Positions 2,967-10,859 of a stretch of DNA of 14,946 nucleotides are shown piece after piece; position 1 is the first letter of the stretch; each line of letters opens with the position of its first letter. The position numbers were made by a program, and so were the translations under genes. Origin of the DNA: Bacteroidota bacterium (GTDB taxonomy: Bacteria > Bacteroidota > Bacteroidia > UBA8524); contig DQHT01000074.1 in assembly GCA_003531115.1 (NCBI GenBank), positions 21,543 through 36,488 on the forward strand. The letters run 5' to 3'. The notes under the pieces were generated by a model. The model saw only the letters and a program-made list of their open reading frames with translations, did not search any database and was not told where the DNA came from.

Positions 2967-4085
2967 ATGAACGAGAGTATGGTATACCGTTTCAGTTGGA
3001 AGGCACTTCTATGTTCACTGTTGCTGCTTTCTTCAGGGAATTCCCGCGTTTTCGCTCAAAATACTGTTTATATGGGTCTCTATGAAAATGGGGATTCAAA
3101 ACAATGGACCCTCGACCTGGCCACACTGGCTCCCGGGGAGTCGGTTTACCTGATCGTATCTGATTTTTCTGGTCTGGACCAGTGGCAGGAACTGCTGGGC
3201 AAAAGTCTGGGCGGCTTATTCGATTATGCCATGCCGCGTTTTACCCTGGAATACGACAGCTTTGATTGCCTGGAAAGAACACTCATGACCGATTCCGATT
3301 CGACACAGGACCATGCTCGAGGATCGGGCGAAATACTTGGTATACCAGGGAGCCCGCTGAAGAGGGAAGTTGCAGCCCGGGGACAATCCACCGAACTGAG
3401 CATCCGATATCTTGCCGGGCAGGAATTACAAGCATTTTCAGCCTGGCTACAGACGGGGCAATTTGTTATCGAAATTCGTTTGAATGAGGATGCGATCAAG
3501 GGAAAACGGGTTTTGTTATTCGATCAGGAAAGATCCGTAGTACCTCATTGTTTCCATCGAAAAAATGGAACGCTTGTTCCTTTGAGCGTGCACCTGTTTT
3601 CGATGGATGAGAAGGGGCGCTTGTTGGCGCAGGACTGGAAGAAGGAGCCAGGTACGATCCTTCTACCTCCTGAAGTGATGCGACAACGCAGGCCTTTTCA
3701 GGATACCCTGATCCGACATTGGCAGGAAGCGCCCGAATCGGTCCTGGTTTATAGTTGGGATATAGGCTTAAAAGGCGGGGATAAATGCGCCCCTTGTGTG
3801 GCCCCTCCTCCCGATTTTAGCCTGCTTCAAAGTATGGGTATGGATAGTATGCCGGAGCATTTGTATGTGAGTTTCGTCATTTTTTCTCCCGCAGCACCAC
3901 GAAATTTAAGTCGTGTATCCTTTGAGGCCTTTCAATGGGTTTTTGAAATGCACGAGCCTGCAAAAGGCTTCCTCAACTGCGATGAGGCCGTGTTATACCG
4001 GGAAATGCTGCGTAAAAGGAAAGAACAGGAGCTGAGAAATTTGAGGAATCTGTTGGGCGACAAGGCCACAACATTTAAATTTTGA
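2967..4085 (+). CDS. Secreted protein of unknown function with CxxC-PPP motif
   Basis: The product has 372 residues and I do not recognise a well-defined family. It has an N-terminal signal peptide: charged start, hydrophobic core ALLCSLLLL and a likely cleavage after VFA (residue 30). A second Met at residue 5 is an equally good start. The body has no further membrane segments and no T9SS sorting tail, so a periplasmic location is most likely. The region VYSWDIG...GDKCAPCVAPPPDF (residues 261-284) holds Cys274 and Cys277 followed by three prolines, then a Gly-Met-Asp segment and a predicted strand. This order (Trp-Asp, CxxC, PP, then a Leu-Gly/Met-Gly stretch) recalls the C-terminal part of DUF2330 proteins, but that is a weak impression. 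The C-terminus is highly charged (REMLRKRKEQELRNLRN) and probably helical. It lies 46 bases after the protease stop, separated by a terminator. Confidence 0.75.
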   Translation: MNESMVYRFSWKALLCSLLLLSSGNSRVFAQNTVYMGLYENGDSKQWTLDLATLAPGESVYLIVSDFSGLDQWQELLGKSLGGLFDYAMPRFTLEYDSFDCLERTLMTDSDSTQDHARGSGEILGIPGSPLKREVAARGQSTELSIRYLAGQELQAFSAWLQTGQFVIEIRLNEDAIKGKRVLLFDQERSVVPHCFHRKNGTLVPLSVHLFSMDEKGRLLAQDWKKEPGTILLPPEVMRQRRPFQDTLIRHWQEAPESVLVYSWDIGLKGGDKCAPCVAPPPDFSLLQSMGMDSMPEHLYVSFVIFSPAAPRNLSRVSFEAFQWVFEMHEPAKGFLNCDEAVLYREMLRKRKEQELRNLRNLLGDKATTFKF

Positions 4086-6020: not shown

Positions 6021-6512
6021 TTACCCCACCGGCTTAAACTGCTCAAAAGCCTGCAAACAGTTATCGCAATAGTGCATGGAGCGGCAAAGGGTTGGTCCGA
6101 AAGGGGTGGTGAGGCGGGTGTTTTTGCTTTGGCAATACGGACAAGCCACATCGGAAAGCACACTCAGTTCGATCAATCCGCCTGTATGTTCAGGAGGAGG
6201 TGCAAGGCCATGCTGGAGCAGGGCTTTCCGGCCTTTTTCGGTGATGCGGTCTGTGGTCCATGCGGTGTCGAAATTGGTGCTCACGTCCACCTTTTGGATG
6301 CCCAGCGACAACACTTTTTCACGCACCATGTCTTCCATAACACGCAGAGCCGGACAACCGCTAAAAGTGGGAATAAGGGTTACCGAGGCTGTATTGTCAG
6401 TCTGATTGACCTGAACTTGGGTGATGATTCCCAGATCGACCATCGAAATGGTGGGGATCTCGGGGTCCATGACCTCTTCCAGGGCCTTCCATATTTGTTT
6501 TTCTTCTACCAT
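6021..6512 (-). CDS. paaD: PaaD, phenylacetyl-CoA epoxidase accessory protein (MIP18/DUF59 family with zinc ribbon)
   Basis: PaaD is thought to help assemble or mature the iron centre of the multicomponent phenylacetyl-CoA 1,2-epoxidase. The 163-residue product has the family's two parts. The N-terminal MIP18/DUF59 domain has DPEIP (residues 16-20), MVDLGII (24-30) and the SGCPA motif with Cys53. The C-terminal zinc ribbon has Cys124, Cys127, Cys149 and Cys152 (CPYC...HYCDNC), followed by the typical EQFKPVG ending. The start ATG overlaps the end of paaC by 7 bases (ATGGTAG), which implies translational coupling. It is the last gene of the group; no further paa gene follows. Confidence 0.95.
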   Translation of the reverse strand: MVEEKQIWKALEEVMDPEIPTISMVDLGIITQVQVNQTDNTASVTLIPTFSGCPALRVMEDMVREKVLSLGIQKVDVSTNFDTAWTTDRITEKGRKALLQHGLAPPPEHTGGLIELSVLSDVACPYCQSKNTRLTTPFGPTLCRSMHYCDNCLQAFEQFKPVG

Positions 6513-7270
6513 TCGGCTCCAGGATCTACCCGGAAAACTTCTGTCATCTCTTCCAGGAGGGGTTGCAGGTTTTCGGTATGTTTACCGACACGACCACCAT
6601 ACACGGGTTTCCAGGTGTTGCTATCCGGAATAGTCAGGCCGGCTTCAGCCAGGATGGGCTCTATTGCCTCCAGCCAGCGAAGTTTTAAAGCAGCTTCTCC
6701 CTTCCAGATAGCTTCATTGATGAGGGTAGATTCGTAGGGTGATTCTTCAAAAATTCCCAGGGCCAGGTTCCAGCAGAAATTGAGGCTGTCCTGCATCCGT
6801 TTTTTACTCTCTGCCGTGCCTTTCCCCAATTGCATCACAAATGTGTCGCCATGAAACTTGTGGTACTTTAATTCGCCCTTGAACTTGCGGGCCAGTTTGG
6901 CCAGGGGTTCGTAGCTTGAATCCATCATCATATCATAACGCAACAACTCAGCATTATCGAACAGAAAATGGCGCATCAGCGAAAAATCATACTCCCCGAT
7001 CGGGTATTCTACCAATTGACAATTATGAAACTGCTGTTGGTTACGGGTAAAAGCTACCGTATCGGGTTCAGCCTCCCCAAGGTTGTTGAGCAATTGATAC
7101 AAGGCCAGGGATTGTCCGATCTTGTCCTGTGCCATGGATGAAAAGGAGATATCCTCTTCAAGCATAGGTCCGATACCCGTCCATTCCGAGTTTCTGTGAC
7201 CCAGGATAAGCAGGTCGTCGGCCATTTTATACAGCAGTTCTTTAACTGCCTGAGCATACTTTTCGTTCAT
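6506..7270 (-). CDS. paaC: PaaC, structural subunit of phenylacetyl-CoA epoxidase
   Basis: PaaC is the ferritin-fold partner that pairs with the catalytic PaaA in the epoxidase that converts phenylacetyl-CoA to its ring-1,2-epoxide. The family signature LLILGHRNSEW...PMLEEDISFSSMAQD is near the N-terminus, and GELKYHKFHGD and the PVYGGRVGKHTE end segment also match. I chose ATG 7270 (254 residues, close to the usual length of about 250): it lies one base after the paaB stop (TAAAATG) and is preceded by AAGGAT. A longer frame starting at 7300 would overlap paaB by 29 bases and add ten unconserved residues. The 3' end overlaps paaD by 7 bases. Without a PaaA partner this subunit has no known catalytic activity. 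Confidence 0.95.
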   Translation of the reverse strand: MNEKYAQAVKELLYKMADDLLILGHRNSEWTGIGPMLEEDISFSSMAQDKIGQSLALYQLLNNLGEAEPDTVAFTRNQQQFHNCQLVEYPIGEYDFSLMRHFLFDNAELLRYDMMMDSSYEPLAKLARKFKGELKYHKFHGDTFVMQLGKGTAESKKRMQDSLNFCWNLALGIFEESPYESTLINEAIWKGEAALKLRWLEAIEPILAEAGLTIPDSNTWKPVYGGRVGKHTENLQPLLEEMTEVFRVDPGAEW

Positions 7271-7271
7271 T

Positions 7272-7649
7272 TTAAGATCCTTGTTTGGCTTTATAGGCAT
7301 TGATTCTATCCATCACCTTGTACGGCGATGCTTCCCGGTACTGTTTGTCGGGCGTGGTGCTGAAAATATCGTCATCATCATAATCAGATGCGAAAATATC
7401 CGTTGTGCGTGCCACCCAGATATTGACACAAACCCCGCGACGGCCGTATTGTTCCTTGCCAAAAAGCAATGCCATCTCAGGGTTGGGTGCGTGAACCGTT
7501 CCCACGTGCTGGTGATGCGTGCCTCTTTTCTTCTGGTGAAAAACTTCGTAGGTTTCGAAGTGCTCCAGCGGCTTTAATTCTTGTTCCATACCCGGTTCAT
7601 CGCTGATCTGGGCACGTGAAATTCGTGGATCTAAAGATTTTATTATCAT
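7272..7649 (-). CDS. paaB: PaaB, phenylacetyl-CoA epoxidase subunit
   Basis: PaaB is the small bridging subunit that joins PaaA-PaaC heterodimers in the epoxidase complex. The core FETYEVFHQKKRGTHHQHVG (residues 31-50), VHAPNPEMAL and NIWVARTTDI segments are diagnostic. The product is 125 residues, with about 25 extra N-terminal residues (IKSLDPRISRAQI) compared with the E. coli protein; I believe such an extension is common in Bacteroidota homologues, which supports ATG 7649, though Met21 (7589) is a possible alternative. No clear Shine-Dalgarno is seen. A perfect palindrome lies 10-30 bases upstream of the start, which suggests that transcription of this group begins here. Normally paaA would precede it; here a cytochrome-peroxidase-like gene does. 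Confidence 0.93.
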   Translation of the reverse strand: MIIKSLDPRISRAQISDEPGMEQELKPLEHFETYEVFHQKKRGTHHQHVGTVHAPNPEMALLFGKEQYGRRGVCVNIWVARTTDIFASDYDDDDIFSTTPDKQYREASPYKVMDRINAYKAKQGS

Positions 7650-7699: not shown

Positions 7700-8722
7700 T
7701 CATTCCGGGAGCCGGTAATTCTGGTTTTGAATGAAAGTGGGGTCAGACAGCGTTTTCAGAAAGGCGATAAGGGCAGCTTTTTCTTCAGCTTTCAGGGTAA
7801 ATCCTGAAACCAGCGGACTTTGATTCGGTCCCGATTTTCCTCCTGAAGCATAATGATCGATCACAGCTTCGAGTGTGGTGATGGAACCGTCATGCATGTA
7901 GGGAGGAGTGAGTGCTACATTGCGTAAGCTGGGAATTTTAAACTTGCCACTATCGGTCGGCAAGTTGGTAAATCGTGCCCTGCCCGGGTCTTTATAGGAA
8001 AAATAAAGACCATTGTTCATGGGTTCAAATGTGGTGAAAAAGGGTTCTGCATGGCATTTTACGCAATTGGTTTTTGAAGAAAGGAATAAGCGATAACCTT
8101 CTTCTTCCTGTGGGGTATACCTGCTTTTTCCGGTCGATACTTTATCGTAGCGTGAATTGGCGCTTATTAAAGTCCTTTCAAATGCAGCGATGGAACGGGT
8201 AATGGAATAGGGGCCGGGAGCTTGTCCGTAAGCCAGTTGGCTCAGTGAATCATAATAGGGAATGAGAGCGAGCTGCTCACCAATATCCACAATATTATGG
8301 GCAAACTCATTGTGCTCCTGTATCGGAACAAGGATCTGCATTTCGAGGGTTGGCAGGGATGCTTCTCTCAGGTAGTGGGGTTGGTAAGCCAGGTTGAAGA
8401 GACCGGGAGCATTTCGGGTTCCCTGACGGCCATACACACCGGGATTGGTGGCTTTGAGGCTGGCAAAGGCATGTTTGGGCTGATGGCAACTGGCACAACT
8501 GATGCTCGAATCAATACTCAGGATCGGGTCATAGAACAAGGCTTTTCCTAACTCAATACGGGTTGCATTGGGCTGGTTGTCGGCCGGGATGAATGGTGCC
8601 GGAAAATGGGCAGGGTACTGCGTAAACCAGTTGCCTTCTGAAAGACCTGGCGTTTCGTTTTTTTCGCATCCCGTTGTCAAAACGAAAACCAGAAAAAAGC
8701 TGAAAAACGCCAACCTTTTCAT
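7700..8722 (-). CDS. Di-heme cytochrome c peroxidase/MauG-like lipoprotein, divergent second copy
   Basis: This predicted periplasmic lipoprotein binds two c-type hemes. The signal sequence ends in a lipobox (LTTGC, Cys19). Heme sites are CASCH (Cys76, Cys79, His80) and CVKCH (Cys220, Cys223, His224). The family end motif SLRNVALTPPYMHDG is present, with Met276 as the possible distal ligand. ATG 8722 is preferred over the TTG three bases upstream because it forms a TGATG junction with the preceding gene's stop, indicating coupled translation. Unlike its neighbour, it lacks the WDGR segment between the heme domains: the aligned stretch reads PHYLREASLPT. That Trp is the inter-heme relay in MauG and bacterial peroxidases, so activity may differ. 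The context next to an MbnP-like gene suggests a role in oxidative modification of that protein rather than plain peroxide removal. Confidence 0.93.
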   Translation of the reverse strand: MKRLAFFSFFLVFVLTTGCEKNETPGLSEGNWFTQYPAHFPAPFIPADNQPNATRIELGKALFYDPILSIDSSISCASCHQPKHAFASLKATNPGVYGRQGTRNAPGLFNLAYQPHYLREASLPTLEMQILVPIQEHNEFAHNIVDIGEQLALIPYYDSLSQLAYGQAPGPYSITRSIAAFERTLISANSRYDKVSTGKSRYTPQEEEGYRLFLSSKTNCVKCHAEPFFTTFEPMNNGLYFSYKDPGRARFTNLPTDSGKFKIPSLRNVALTPPYMHDGSITTLEAVIDHYASGGKSGPNQSPLVSGFTLKAEEKAALIAFLKTLSDPTFIQNQNYRLPE

Positions 8723-9810
8723 CAATTTGGATCCGAATAACGCGGGTCGCTGAGGAGTGAATAATCACTCAGGGTTTTCAGAAATGCCAGAAGGTCGGCC
8801 TTTTCCTGGGTGTCGAGCATCAGGCCGGTATTCATTGTATACTGCAGGGCAGGATCAAGGCTGGACGAATAGCGGATGCCATGGTCGTAATGGTCGATCA
8901 CTTCTTCCAGAGTCTGGAAGCGACCATCGTGCATATAGGGTGGGGTTAGAGCAATGTTACGCAGGCTCATAACCTTGAATTTGCCCTTGTCGCCCGGCTT
9001 TCCTGTCACCGCTTCACGTCCGATATCCAATATTGCGGATGTGCTGTCGAGGCCGTTGTTCATGTATTGGTTATTCTCGAAATTTCCGCCGCTGTGGCAA
9101 TGCGCACAATCAGCTCCTGAAATTTCCGGAAAAAACGGATTGTATTCGGCAAAAAACAAGGCTCTTCCGCGTTCCTCTTCCTGGCTGAGCGTGGCTTTCC
9201 CGGCCAGATACTGATCGTATTTACTGTCAGCTGAAACAATGCTGTTCATAAACTGCTCAAGAGCCAAAGAAATACGTTGCGGGTTTATTTCTTCGGAGCC
9301 AAAGGCCTTTTCGAACTGGCTTTTATAGGTTTCCAGAGCAGTCAGTTTGGTAACTACATTTGCCAGGGTTTCGTTCATTTCCAGCGGGTCCTGTATAGGT
9401 TTAAGGGCTTGGTCCCGAAGGAGGTGGGCACGACCATCCCAGAAAAATTCATTTTTATGCCAGAGGGTGTTAAACACGGCCATAGCCTGGCGTTTACCGG
9501 GTAATCCTGCAATACCAATTGAAAAACGTGAAGTGTCTGTGAAAGCATGCTCCTGCCGGTGACAGCCCGCACAACTTTGGGTCCCATCACCGGAGAGAAG
9601 CTTTTCATAAAACAACATCCTTCCCAGCTTAACCCCTTCCATGGTCAGGGGATTATCTCCGGGAATTTCAGGAGCAGGTAAATTCCCATATTCCAGTACA
9701 TAAGCAGGATTTTCCGGAGTTGTATTCAAAGGCTCATCCTTCGCACAACTGCCGATAAAAAGGGCAAATCCCAGCATAAAACTCAATATTCCAATCCGTT
9801 TATTCATCAT
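8722..9810 (-). CDS. Di-heme cytochrome c peroxidase/MauG (MbnH)-like lipoprotein
   Basis: This 362-residue predicted lipoprotein (lipobox FIGSC, Cys22) has two heme sites, CAGCH (Cys80, Cys83, His84) and CAHCH (Cys235, Cys238, His239), the WDGRA motif with Trp124, and the C-terminal SLRNIALTPPYMHDGRF segment with Met293. These are hallmarks of the bacterial di-heme peroxidase/MauG superfamily. Because it directly follows an MbnP-like gene (46-49 bases away) it is the best candidate here for MbnH, the enzyme that oxidises an MbnP tryptophan. Three in-frame starts follow one another (GTG 9813, ATG 9810, ATG 9807); I chose the first ATG. The stop overlaps the next gene's ATG by one base. A hairpin lies in the gap before it. 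A peroxide-detoxifying role remains possible. Confidence 0.93.
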   Translation of the reverse strand: MMNKRIGILSFMLGFALFIGSCAKDEPLNTTPENPAYVLEYGNLPAPEIPGDNPLTMEGVKLGRMLFYEKLLSGDGTQSCAGCHRQEHAFTDTSRFSIGIAGLPGKRQAMAVFNTLWHKNEFFWDGRAHLLRDQALKPIQDPLEMNETLANVVTKLTALETYKSQFEKAFGSEEINPQRISLALEQFMNSIVSADSKYDQYLAGKATLSQEEERGRALFFAEYNPFFPEISGADCAHCHSGGNFENNQYMNNGLDSTSAILDIGREAVTGKPGDKGKFKVMSLRNIALTPPYMHDGRFQTLEEVIDHYDHGIRYSSSLDPALQYTMNTGLMLDTQEKADLLAFLKTLSDYSLLSDPRYSDPN

Positions 9811-9820
9811 CACTGAAAAC

Positions 9821-9856
9821 TTTTACCCGCCGAAGCTTCAGCGTAGGCGGGGAAAA
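9821..9856. repeat. GC-rich inverted repeat between the mbnP-like and first di-heme gene
   Basis: CCCGCC (9826-9831) pairs with GGCGGG (9846-9851). TTTT (9821-9824) and AAAA (9853-9856) extend the stem after one mismatch. The loop holds the palindrome GAAGCTTC. The sequence resembles short dispersed GC-rich palindromes found in intergenic gaps of many Bacteroidota (recollection, not checked). No T-tract follows on the minus strand, so it may moderate readthrough or mRNA stability rather than end transcription. Confidence 0.7.
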
Positions 9857-9859
9857 CGC

Positions 9860-10828
9860 TTAAGGAGTAACAACCCATTTTACCGAACGTGTTTCCTTGC
9901 CGGCATATTCAAGAGCGATCACATAAAAACCAGGACTTTGCGGGGCGAGGATCATAGCTTCACTAACCTGATCATACCTGGCCACACATTTGCCTTGTTG
10001 GTCGTATACCTGTATGCAGGAAGGCATATTTTCATCCTTAAATGACAGGGTGCTGCTGCCTGAACTTGGGTTTGGATAAAGTACGGCTTGCTCCTCCGCT
10101 ATTTCGGGATTGGAAAGCACAGAGCTGTTTCCCTCAGAAGAGGTAAACACATGGTTCGCAAAATTCATGATCATTTCGTAACCTTCCTCGACTTCGGCAT
10201 GAGTAACCACGCCCGCTGTAGTTTCAATGCCTTTTAAAGCTTGTGCATAGTCGGCATTCAGTTCTATAGTAAGATCATTGCCCACTTTGACACCGGCCGT
10301 ACTGATCTTTATTTGCAGGTAATTCACATCCCCGAGGCTGTGTACCTCTACATTTTGATCGCGGTTGGTCCCTCCACTGCCTTCTAAGGCTATAAACCGG
10401 TAGCCGGCCTGCCAGCCCCAATGCATGGATGGAGATTTGGGCGCCAACGGGTGAGCGGGTGCATAGGTGCTGGGATCTAAATGGTTGTATGCCTCTTGCA
10501 CACCGATGGAAAAGCGAATTTCTTCAAGATTGGTAATGGTGTGGCTTCCCAAAAGGACATTTAAGGGCATATTTCCTTTGACCAGCAGCCAGGTATCAGC
10601 GATCGCTGTTTGTTGACCGCCATCATGGATCAAAATAATGCTGCTCATGTAATACTCGAGGCGTCTGAATTTAAAGGGCTCACCATCTGCAGTTTCAGTA
10701 TTTTTATTAAAAGCAAAGGCTGAATCTCCCATTTTATGGTTGATTTTCAGATAAATATCACTTTGCGCAAAGAGGTTGCCGGAGCAAAAAATAGCCAGAA
10801 GAGCTAATAGGAGTAAGGGTTTTTTCAT
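9860..10828 (-). CDS. MbnP-like copper-binding protein with T9SS sorting domain
   Basis: The 322-residue product has a signal peptide (cleavage near FAQ, residues 20-22), an MbnP-type domain (about 24-230) and a type A T9SS sorting domain (about 248-322, starting VLYPNPSSG, ending in VVTP). MbnP features are the early FKFRRLEYYMS strand, HPLAPKSPSMHWGWQAGYRF (126-145) with Trp137 and Trp139, the following ALEG, and the closing NHVF (His226). In methanotroph MbnP a tryptophan is oxidised to kynurenine and helps bind copper, and the partner MbnH is a di-heme protein; two such genes follow directly. The sorting tail implies export across the outer membrane, so any modification by periplasmic lipoproteins must precede export. 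An exact -7 box lies 24 bases upstream. The family call is confident; copper binding is by homology; the modified residue is inference. Confidence 0.88.
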   Translation of the reverse strand: MKKPLLLLALLAIFCSGNLFAQSDIYLKINHKMGDSAFAFNKNTETADGEPFKFRRLEYYMSSIILIHDGGQQTAIADTWLLVKGNMPLNVLLGSHTITNLEEIRFSIGVQEAYNHLDPSTYAPAHPLAPKSPSMHWGWQAGYRFIALEGSGGTNRDQNVEVHSLGDVNYLQIKISTAGVKVGNDLTIELNADYAQALKGIETTAGVVTHAEVEEGYEMIMNFANHVFTSSEGNSSVLSNPEIAEEQAVLYPNPSSGSSTLSFKDENMPSCIQVYDQQGKCVARYDQVSEAMILAPQSPGFYVIALEYAGKETRSVKWVVTP

Positions 10829-10851: not shown

Positions 10852-10859
10852 CAAATTTA
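10852..10859 (-). promoter_or_regulatory. Bacteroidota-type -7 promoter box for the mbnP-like gene
   Basis: The minus strand reads TAAATTTG, an exact match to the Bacteroidota TAnnTTTG -7 element, 23 bases before the ATG at 10828. No clear TTG -33 element is seen at the usual spacing; the AT-rich stretch upstream runs into the end of the DUF58 gene. It suggests that the mbnP/di-heme genes form an operon separate from the MoxR group. Confidence 0.6.

Follow-up and report, generated by a model that had tools for sequence, protein, structure and literature searches.

An MbnP-family protein coded with two unlike MauG-type di-heme proteins in Bacteroidota: a candidate surface copper protein and its maturation enzymes

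What might a protein of the MbnP family do in a Bacteroidota genome when it is coded with two unlike di-heme proteins rather than with one? The question is raised by a stretch of 14,946 nucleotides from a Bacteroidota bacterium of the GTDB lineage UBA8524 (assembly GCA_003531115.1, contig DQHT01000074.1, positions 21,543 to 36,488), referred to here as the window. The pair of MbnP with the di-heme protein MbnH is described as extending beyond methanobactin producers in the available text of PMC3621798. An earlier reading of the window from its sequence alone (the sequence-only reading) proposed a unit of an MbnP-like gene and two di-heme genes, and all three open reading frames (ORFs) were recovered on the minus strand. 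Based on the gene order and its conservation, the protein families, the fold, the conserved residues, the secretion tail and the genes neighbouring the relatives, we consider it probable, if well short of certain, that the unit codes for a copper protein of the cell surface and for the enzymes that mature it, of which di-heme protein A would make kynurenine and di-heme protein B would be a second, differently wired oxidase. The features on which this reading draws are as follows.

9860..10828, minus strand: MbnP-family protein of 322 amino acids, with a signal peptide, an MbnP domain at about 22-233 and a type A C-terminal domain of the type IX secretion system (T9SS) at about 247-322.
10412..10426, minus strand: M135-H136-W137-G138-W139 in the MbnP sequence, the presumed kynurenine site (W137) with the presumed copper ligand Met135.
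10340..10342, minus strand: codon of H163, the presumed His ligand of the copper site, aligned to the xHxG histidine of 7l6g.
8722..9813, minus strand: putative di-heme lipoprotein A (MbnH-like), with a mechanical ORF start GTG at 9813 and ATG codons just inside; its Trp125, Gln135, Glu145 and Tyr309 correspond to Trp93, Q103, E113 and Tyr294 of MauG.
7700..8725, minus strand: putative di-heme lipoprotein B, with a mechanical start TTG at 8725 and a probable ATG start at 8722; Arg120 occupies the position of MauG Trp93, and Gln130, Glu140 and Tyr292 are present.
8720..8724, minus strand: TGATG in the sequence, in which the stop codon of A and the ATG of B overlap by one base.

The survey of gene neighborhoods showed that the unit recurs, in agreement with the earlier suggestion of a Bacteroidota variant with two unlike di-heme partners. 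Two patterns, which contain either MHWGW or the residues around H163, gave 369 loci, and the best 80, with an MbnP of the PSMHWGW type, were taken further; in 65/80 of these, hidden Markov models (HMMs) placed A and B adjacent and on the same strand. The downstream order was B then A in 41 loci (7 of them close to a contig end) and the opposite in 22 (1 close to an end); one locus (L065) held A, B and an additional di-heme gene, and in one other (L030) B and A were each split in two frames. B was reversed beside A in one locus, A occurred without B in five (2 near an end) and B without A in nine (6 near an end). When 198 Bacteroidota genomes were sampled evenly, 51 of them gave 72 MbnP matches, and after dropping two matches below the cut-off (G140 and the second of G178) there remained 70 MbnP loci in 50 genomes, including that of the window. 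Two di-heme genes lay within 3 kb of 8 of the 11 MbnPs of the MHWGW type (one in the remaining 3) compared to 3 of the 59 other MbnPs (one in 54, none in 2), giving a Fisher p of 2.5e-6 that ignores relatedness. Sorting was strict by MHWGW; WGW also occurs in L138, L150 and the other MbnP of L168, and L168 (G109) was counted once as MHWGW and once as other, each time with two di-hemes. In this locus two MbnPs are interleaved with the di-hemes in the order MbnP', A, MbnP, B, and MbnP' has Leu at the M135 position.

The strong matches in the 198 genomes, 8 to A at E <= 1e-115 and 10 to B over 380 bits, all adjoined an MbnP (thresholds chosen after viewing the lists, with scoring limited to 10 candidates in each genome), and weaker matches to the B model (338-371 bits) were in part single MbnP partners and in part away from MbnP. 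A full Met/Trp/Trp/His site was found in 53/70 MbnPs, each with a di-heme gene within 3 kb, and the two MbnPs lacking any di-heme (that on contig C155 of the window's own genome and L195) were both without the full site. A full three-gene unit was also present in L054, a record titled as a Phycisphaerales metagenome-assembled genome, through transfer or a binning error.

The first protein of the unit matched the MbnP family PF20243 (97.2 bits, E 1.5e-27), far over the cut-off of 27, so the assignment made earlier from its landmarks was supported, and the M135-H136-W137-G138-W139 landmark was present in the sequence. One of the two outcomes named by the sequence-only reading as overturning it, an MbnP-like domain with no significant family match, was thereby not observed. 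In a Foldseek comparison of its predicted model with the PDB, the solved MbnP 7l6g was the sole entry at E <= 0.001; structural matches other than 7l6g concerned mainly the beta-sandwich of the secretion tail and were left unused. In the alignment with 7l6g the copper-site set M135, W137, W139 and H163 was complete. We take W137 to be the tryptophan that is oxidized, in line with published work on M. trichosporium, and Met135 and His163 are presumably the copper ligands. The window MbnP may carry kynurenine at W137 and bind Cu(I).

The MHWGW subtype is also rich in histidine. Among 201 subtype MbnPs, His was near-invariant at H31 (199), H68 (196), H136 (201), H163 (201) and H210 (201) and frequent at H116 (170) and H126 (177), and in 46 other WxW-bearing MbnPs H163 was invariant (46/46) with His at the H136 position in 4, at H210 in 18 and at H31 in 10. 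The residue counts for A, B and the subtype MbnP include the 120 best matches per query, and these sets lean toward the query; the set of other MbnPs was defined by a crude P[NT]P tail rule that still includes L177, L192 and L194 and omits L143 and L159. The invariance of H136 and H163 is partly a result of selection because both lie in the patterns that found the 80 loci, and H31, H68 and H210 lie outside them. These additional His may point to a larger metal site or to a second one. The genome of the window (G000) codes three further MbnPs on contigs C48, C20 and C155 (L013, L014, and L015), two of them with a single di-heme. The C155 MbnP, whose copper site is incomplete, adjoins a small Cys-containing protein (L015:6547-6918, no NCBIfam match), and the C48 MbnP, searched against plasmids, gave one Deinococcus match.

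Both partner proteins proved to be di-heme proteins as first proposed, matching PF03150 at E 1e-55 (A) and 2.7e-43 (B) and carrying two CXXCH motifs each (at 81 and 236 in A, and at 77 and 221 in B). Their placement in the MbnH/MauG type was upheld by an axial Tyr (Tyr309 in A and Tyr292 in B) and by 6e1c as the best PDB match. For the predicted model of B (pLDDT, the predicted local distance difference test, 80.1, falling below 50 in the distal-side residues 127-140), 6e1c ranked first (E 4.1e-16), followed by MauG and then by peroxidases (from 7.2e-11). MauG numbering was taken from a record that aligns to 3l4m without mismatch. The axial-ligand position held Tyr in 185/185 A and 190/193 B and Met in 3/3 references of bacterial cytochrome c peroxidases, as read from an alignment and not from structures; the reference alignment comprised 14 A and 14 B, drawn at random from 65 and 72, with di-hemes shorter than 280 amino acids or with fewer than two CXXCH motifs excluded. 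The heme motifs and the equivalents of Gln103, Pro107, Glu113 and Tyr294 were kept almost without exception (185 A, 193 B). Two plasmid records code MbnH-like di-hemes (L098:3947-5101 and L099:3887-5071) that are labeled "methanobactin export MATE transporter MbnM", a name that looks like a database error.

These residues bear on a reading in which A and B are peroxide-reducing peroxidases that guard the surface and MbnP is a copper buffer or electron donor with no kynurenine, which we regard as distinctly unlikely. Peroxide chemistry depends on the distal Gln and Glu, both of which are retained, and BthA, with Ser at the place of Trp93, turns over H2O2 according to the available text (PMC6405878). 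The axial Tyr of A and B, compared to Met in the peroxidase references, opposes this reading and led us to reject both di-hemes as classical peroxidases, with the reservation for B that comes from the constrained-tree test below; BthA also has an axial Tyr in that text, so that the argument reaches the classical enzymes only (PMC6405878). The position of the strong A and B matches next to MbnP in the 198-genome sample opposes it as well, and so does the grouping of both with the MbnH references in the free tree.

A tree of 112 rows, from which six near-duplicate or partial rows and L103 (whose reading looked disrupted) were left out, resolved B as one clade with a Shimodaira-Hasegawa-like approximate likelihood ratio (SH-aLRT) support of 95 and placed A in a clade (98) shared with two long-branch proteins of the window's genome. 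A, B and the MbnH references fell in one fork (93, drawn open) apart from the Met-ligated peroxidases and MauG. A grouping of the di-hemes with classical peroxidases, named by the sequence-only reading as the outcome that would overturn it, was thus not recovered for either protein in the free tree, but the approximately unbiased (AU) test, which further left out eight long-branch rows and kept 10 A and 14 B, did not reject B with the Met-ligated peroxidases (p 0.204), a result in line with the peroxidase reading. In the same test A and B as a single clade were marginally rejected (p 0.041). A recent tandem duplication was ruled out by the 37% identity of A and B and their separate clades. The identity, the separate clades and the marginally rejected constraint also speak against redundancy of A and B, in which both would carry out the same reaction and be kept for dosage or for differing conditions.

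The clearest difference between the two proteins lies at the inter-heme position of MauG Trp93, which was Trp in 185/185 A, whereas the 193 B had Arg (177), Lys (12), Phe (2) or Ser (2). This near-fixed Trp in A versus Arg/Lys in B (189/193) is a further argument against redundancy, which we hold to be very unlikely even though single-partner loci of both kinds exist and the MbnH-like proteins that are single partners accept Tyr, Ala, Phe and Arg at this place (in 55 such proteins Trp 48, Tyr 3, Ala 2, Arg 1, Phe 1). These single MbnP partners show that loss of Trp93 is by itself compatible with serving an MbnP. In the available text on BthA, a relative of MauG that lacks the inter-heme Trp, a bis-Fe(IV) state is still formed and peroxide is reduced (PMC6405878), and B need therefore not be inactive. 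The most likely oxidase of Trp137, to judge from the MbnH features checked, would be A.

The retention of the Trp in A and its loss in B, together with the adjacency of A and B in most loci, would also fit a relay in which one di-heme oxidizes MbnP and the other passes electrons or supplies or regulates the oxidant; separate oxidase and electron-transfer roles had been raised as a possibility in the sequence-only reading. In four genomes with a single-partner locus (G199, G200, G201, and G202) the missing partner was found elsewhere in the genome, which favors a relay. The relay is opposed by genomes in which one partner was not detected: G101 (10 contigs), where B adjoins MbnP, G059 (1 contig), where a weak B-like protein lies beside MbnP, and G203, whose locus stops at a contig end, had no A over 450 bits, and G198 had A but nothing above 300 bits for B. 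The genomes G101, G059 and G198 make a strict mutual dependence of A and B unlikely, and we consider the relay somewhat unlikely. One genome holds two subtype MbnPs, one beside B only (L021) and the other beside A only (L022). A further alternative, rather unlikely in our view, is that the active form of the His-rich, surface-displayed MbnP requires two different oxidations, each by its own di-heme, A making kynurenine and B, with its Arg/Lys, oxidizing a second residue to create a second metal or redox site new to MbnP.

On the preferred reading of a surface copper protein with its maturation enzymes, MbnP would be exported by the T9SS. Its type A tail scored 29.8 bits for TIGR04183 (cut-off 23) and fell just under the cut-off of PF18962 (26.6 vs. 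27), and the genome encodes SprA (2475 bits), the T9SS component that the search covered. A and B have an N-terminal lipobox-like Cys, identified by eye, and may be lipidated. The lipoprotein export signal (LES) of Capnocytophaga is given as C-X-K-(D/E)2-X in the available text of PMC5080379; CAKDE of window A fits this Capnocytophaga consensus, and CEKNE of window B does so in part. In the lipoboxes of relatives an LES-like C-x-K-[DEN] was present in 25/57 A and 25/68 B compared to 5/47 single-partner proteins and 7/210 other flank ORFs; the HMMs used in this count and in that of the neighboring families were built from proteins of the same loci. Surface display of all three proteins is plausible, with the strongest case for MbnP, and A and B would be lipoproteins on the same side as MbnP. 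Using H2O2, or O2 plus electrons, A would convert Trp137 of the WGW to kynurenine by long-range electron transfer, and the kynurenine, together with Met135 and His163, would complete a site for Cu(I). B, in which the inter-heme Trp is replaced by Arg, would act as a second oxidase with a different heme wiring, either repeating the step of A under other conditions or oxidizing another site of the His-rich MbnP. Kynurenine, copper binding, lipidation, surface location and the division of labor between A and B are the inferred parts of this scheme.

The matured MbnP would serve copper homeostasis, as the genes around relatives also suggest. The small Cys-rich protein HYC_CC_PP (NF047658, one example scanned) occurred in 48/80 loci, with 41/52 matches within 2.5 kb upstream of MbnP, and CopA-type ATPases in 16/80 loci (11/17 matches within 2.5 kb). 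The genome of the window carries its HYC_CC_PP genes on contigs C6 and C71. A role in copper acquisition, put forward in the sequence-only reading, was not established: the neighbors are HYC_CC_PP and less often copper-efflux genes, a set that suits homeostasis or resistance no less well. Copper homeostasis is our best guess for the unit, with acquisition, buffering and resistance indistinguishable from the gene content. The statement that no methanobactin genes lie nearby held for MbnB, for which TIGR04159 had no match in the genome (97% complete; the search covered this one mbn gene), and a methanobactin operon with MbnB was ruled out on this ground.

Several results weigh against the proposed surface maturation of MbnP by A and B. 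Neither A (247.6 bits) nor B (240.9) reached the NCBIfam MbnH equivalog TIGR04039 (362.85), and MbnP scored 43.6 bits against the 140 of the equivalog TIGR04052. The inter-heme Trp is lacking in 7/55 single partners, so its loss in B is no proof of a different function, and the genomes G101, G059 and G198 described above have one detected partner. An incomplete copper site does not entail loss of the partner, since 15/17 such MbnPs keep a di-heme and the link between site and partner is one-way. With the strict signal C-x-K-[DE][DE], the lipobox counts were only 12/57 A and 5/68 B (0/47 single partners, 1/210 other flank ORFs). CusB-type adaptors (13/80 loci, 9/18 within 2.5 kb) clustered partially at the unit and CusA-type pumps (7/80 loci, 1/11) did not; enrichment of copper genes was judged by distance inside the same loci and not against random loci. 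Ten scanned proteins of the window included no copper family except MbnP, the outer-flank ORFs being only looked over.

Compared to known systems, the unit resembles the MbnP/MbnH of Methylosinus trichosporium and other methanotrophs (7l6g, 6e1c) in the MbnP fold, the M-x-W-x-W plus His, the axial-Tyr di-heme and the adjacent genes, and differs in the T9SS tail, the extra conserved His (31, 68, 136, 210), the missing MbnB match in the genome and the two di-hemes, one with Arg at the inter-heme Trp. The single MbnP/MbnH pairs of Bacteroidota, such as that on contig C48, share the families and the gene order, whereas Bacteroidota MbnPs without MHWGW have one di-heme in 54/59 loci and mostly no secretion tail recognized by the crude rule. 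MopE/SACCP and CorA/CorB of methanotrophs likewise comprise a surface or secreted kynurenine-copper protein coded with a di-heme protein (PMC3912023). CorA binds copper via two His near the kynurenine, and there is one di-heme. MopE and SACCP are reported together on the surface of Methylococcus capsulatus (PMC3912023), and surface display of the present unit would plausibly parallel this. MauG of Paracoccus denitrificans shares the axial Tyr, the distal Gln/Glu and membership of the Trp-oxidizing superfamily; its substrate is preMADH (the precursor of methylamine dehydrogenase), and its surface Trp199 is Ala in 185/185 A and was not found in B. BthA of Burkholderia has the inter-heme Trp replaced by Ser (Ser257), as B has by Arg, and is described as a peroxidase, with no MbnP partner mentioned in the available text (PMC6405878).

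No publication on a two-di-heme MbnP unit in Bacteroidota was found among the matches listed. As far as these searches show, a secreted His-rich MbnP subtype tied to two di-hemes, one of them without the inter-heme Trp, is new, the MbnP/MbnH pair itself being already known. If the proposed scheme is true, kynurenine copper sites built by di-heme enzymes would occur at the surface of many non-methanotroph Bacteroidota, and the unit would be a natural counterpart of MauG mutagenesis, with two enzymes, with and without the inter-heme Trp, apparently acting on one substrate. What this Trp contributes to long-range oxidation could then be tested directly, proteins usually annotated as cytochrome c peroxidases would gain a candidate function, and HYC_CC_PP proteins a copper link.

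Two further features lie between the genes of the unit and upstream of it.

10852..10859, minus strand: TAAATTTG, a candidate -7 box of the Bacteroidota type, 23 nt ahead of the ATG of MbnP, supported by the sequence and a weak enrichment in relatives.
9827..9850, minus strand: CCGCCTACGCTGAAGCTTCGGCGG, a palindromic hairpin repeat in the gap between MbnP and A.

The -7 box assigned to the unit from the sequence was present in the 44-nt gap behind the DUF58 gene upstream, and the evidence that it forms a promoter of its own was weak: TAnnTTTG occurred within 120 bp upstream of MbnP in 15/78 relatives compared to 6.9% of base-shuffled sequences and 2/142 di-heme upstream regions. An own promoter for the MbnP unit is possible, and read-through from DUF58 is also conceivable. 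MbnP and A are spaced by 46 nt, a gap with a folding z of -2.26, and, with one mismatch allowed, the CCGCCTACGCTGAAGCTTCGGCGG pattern matched the genome at 5 sites; the hairpin might be a repeat element or might set the ratio of MbnP to the di-hemes. Upstream in the window lie the DUF58 gene and a gene identified by eye as that of a MoxR-like ATPase. The paa genes are downstream, with paaB, paaC and paaD (phenylacetyl-CoA epoxidase; 6021-7649 of the window) directly following B on the same strand. Farther away, the window codes a 372-amino-acid ORF (2967-4085) for which Pfam and NCBIfam gave no match at E 0.01, and a subtilase with a PKD domain and a T9SS tail (281-2920).

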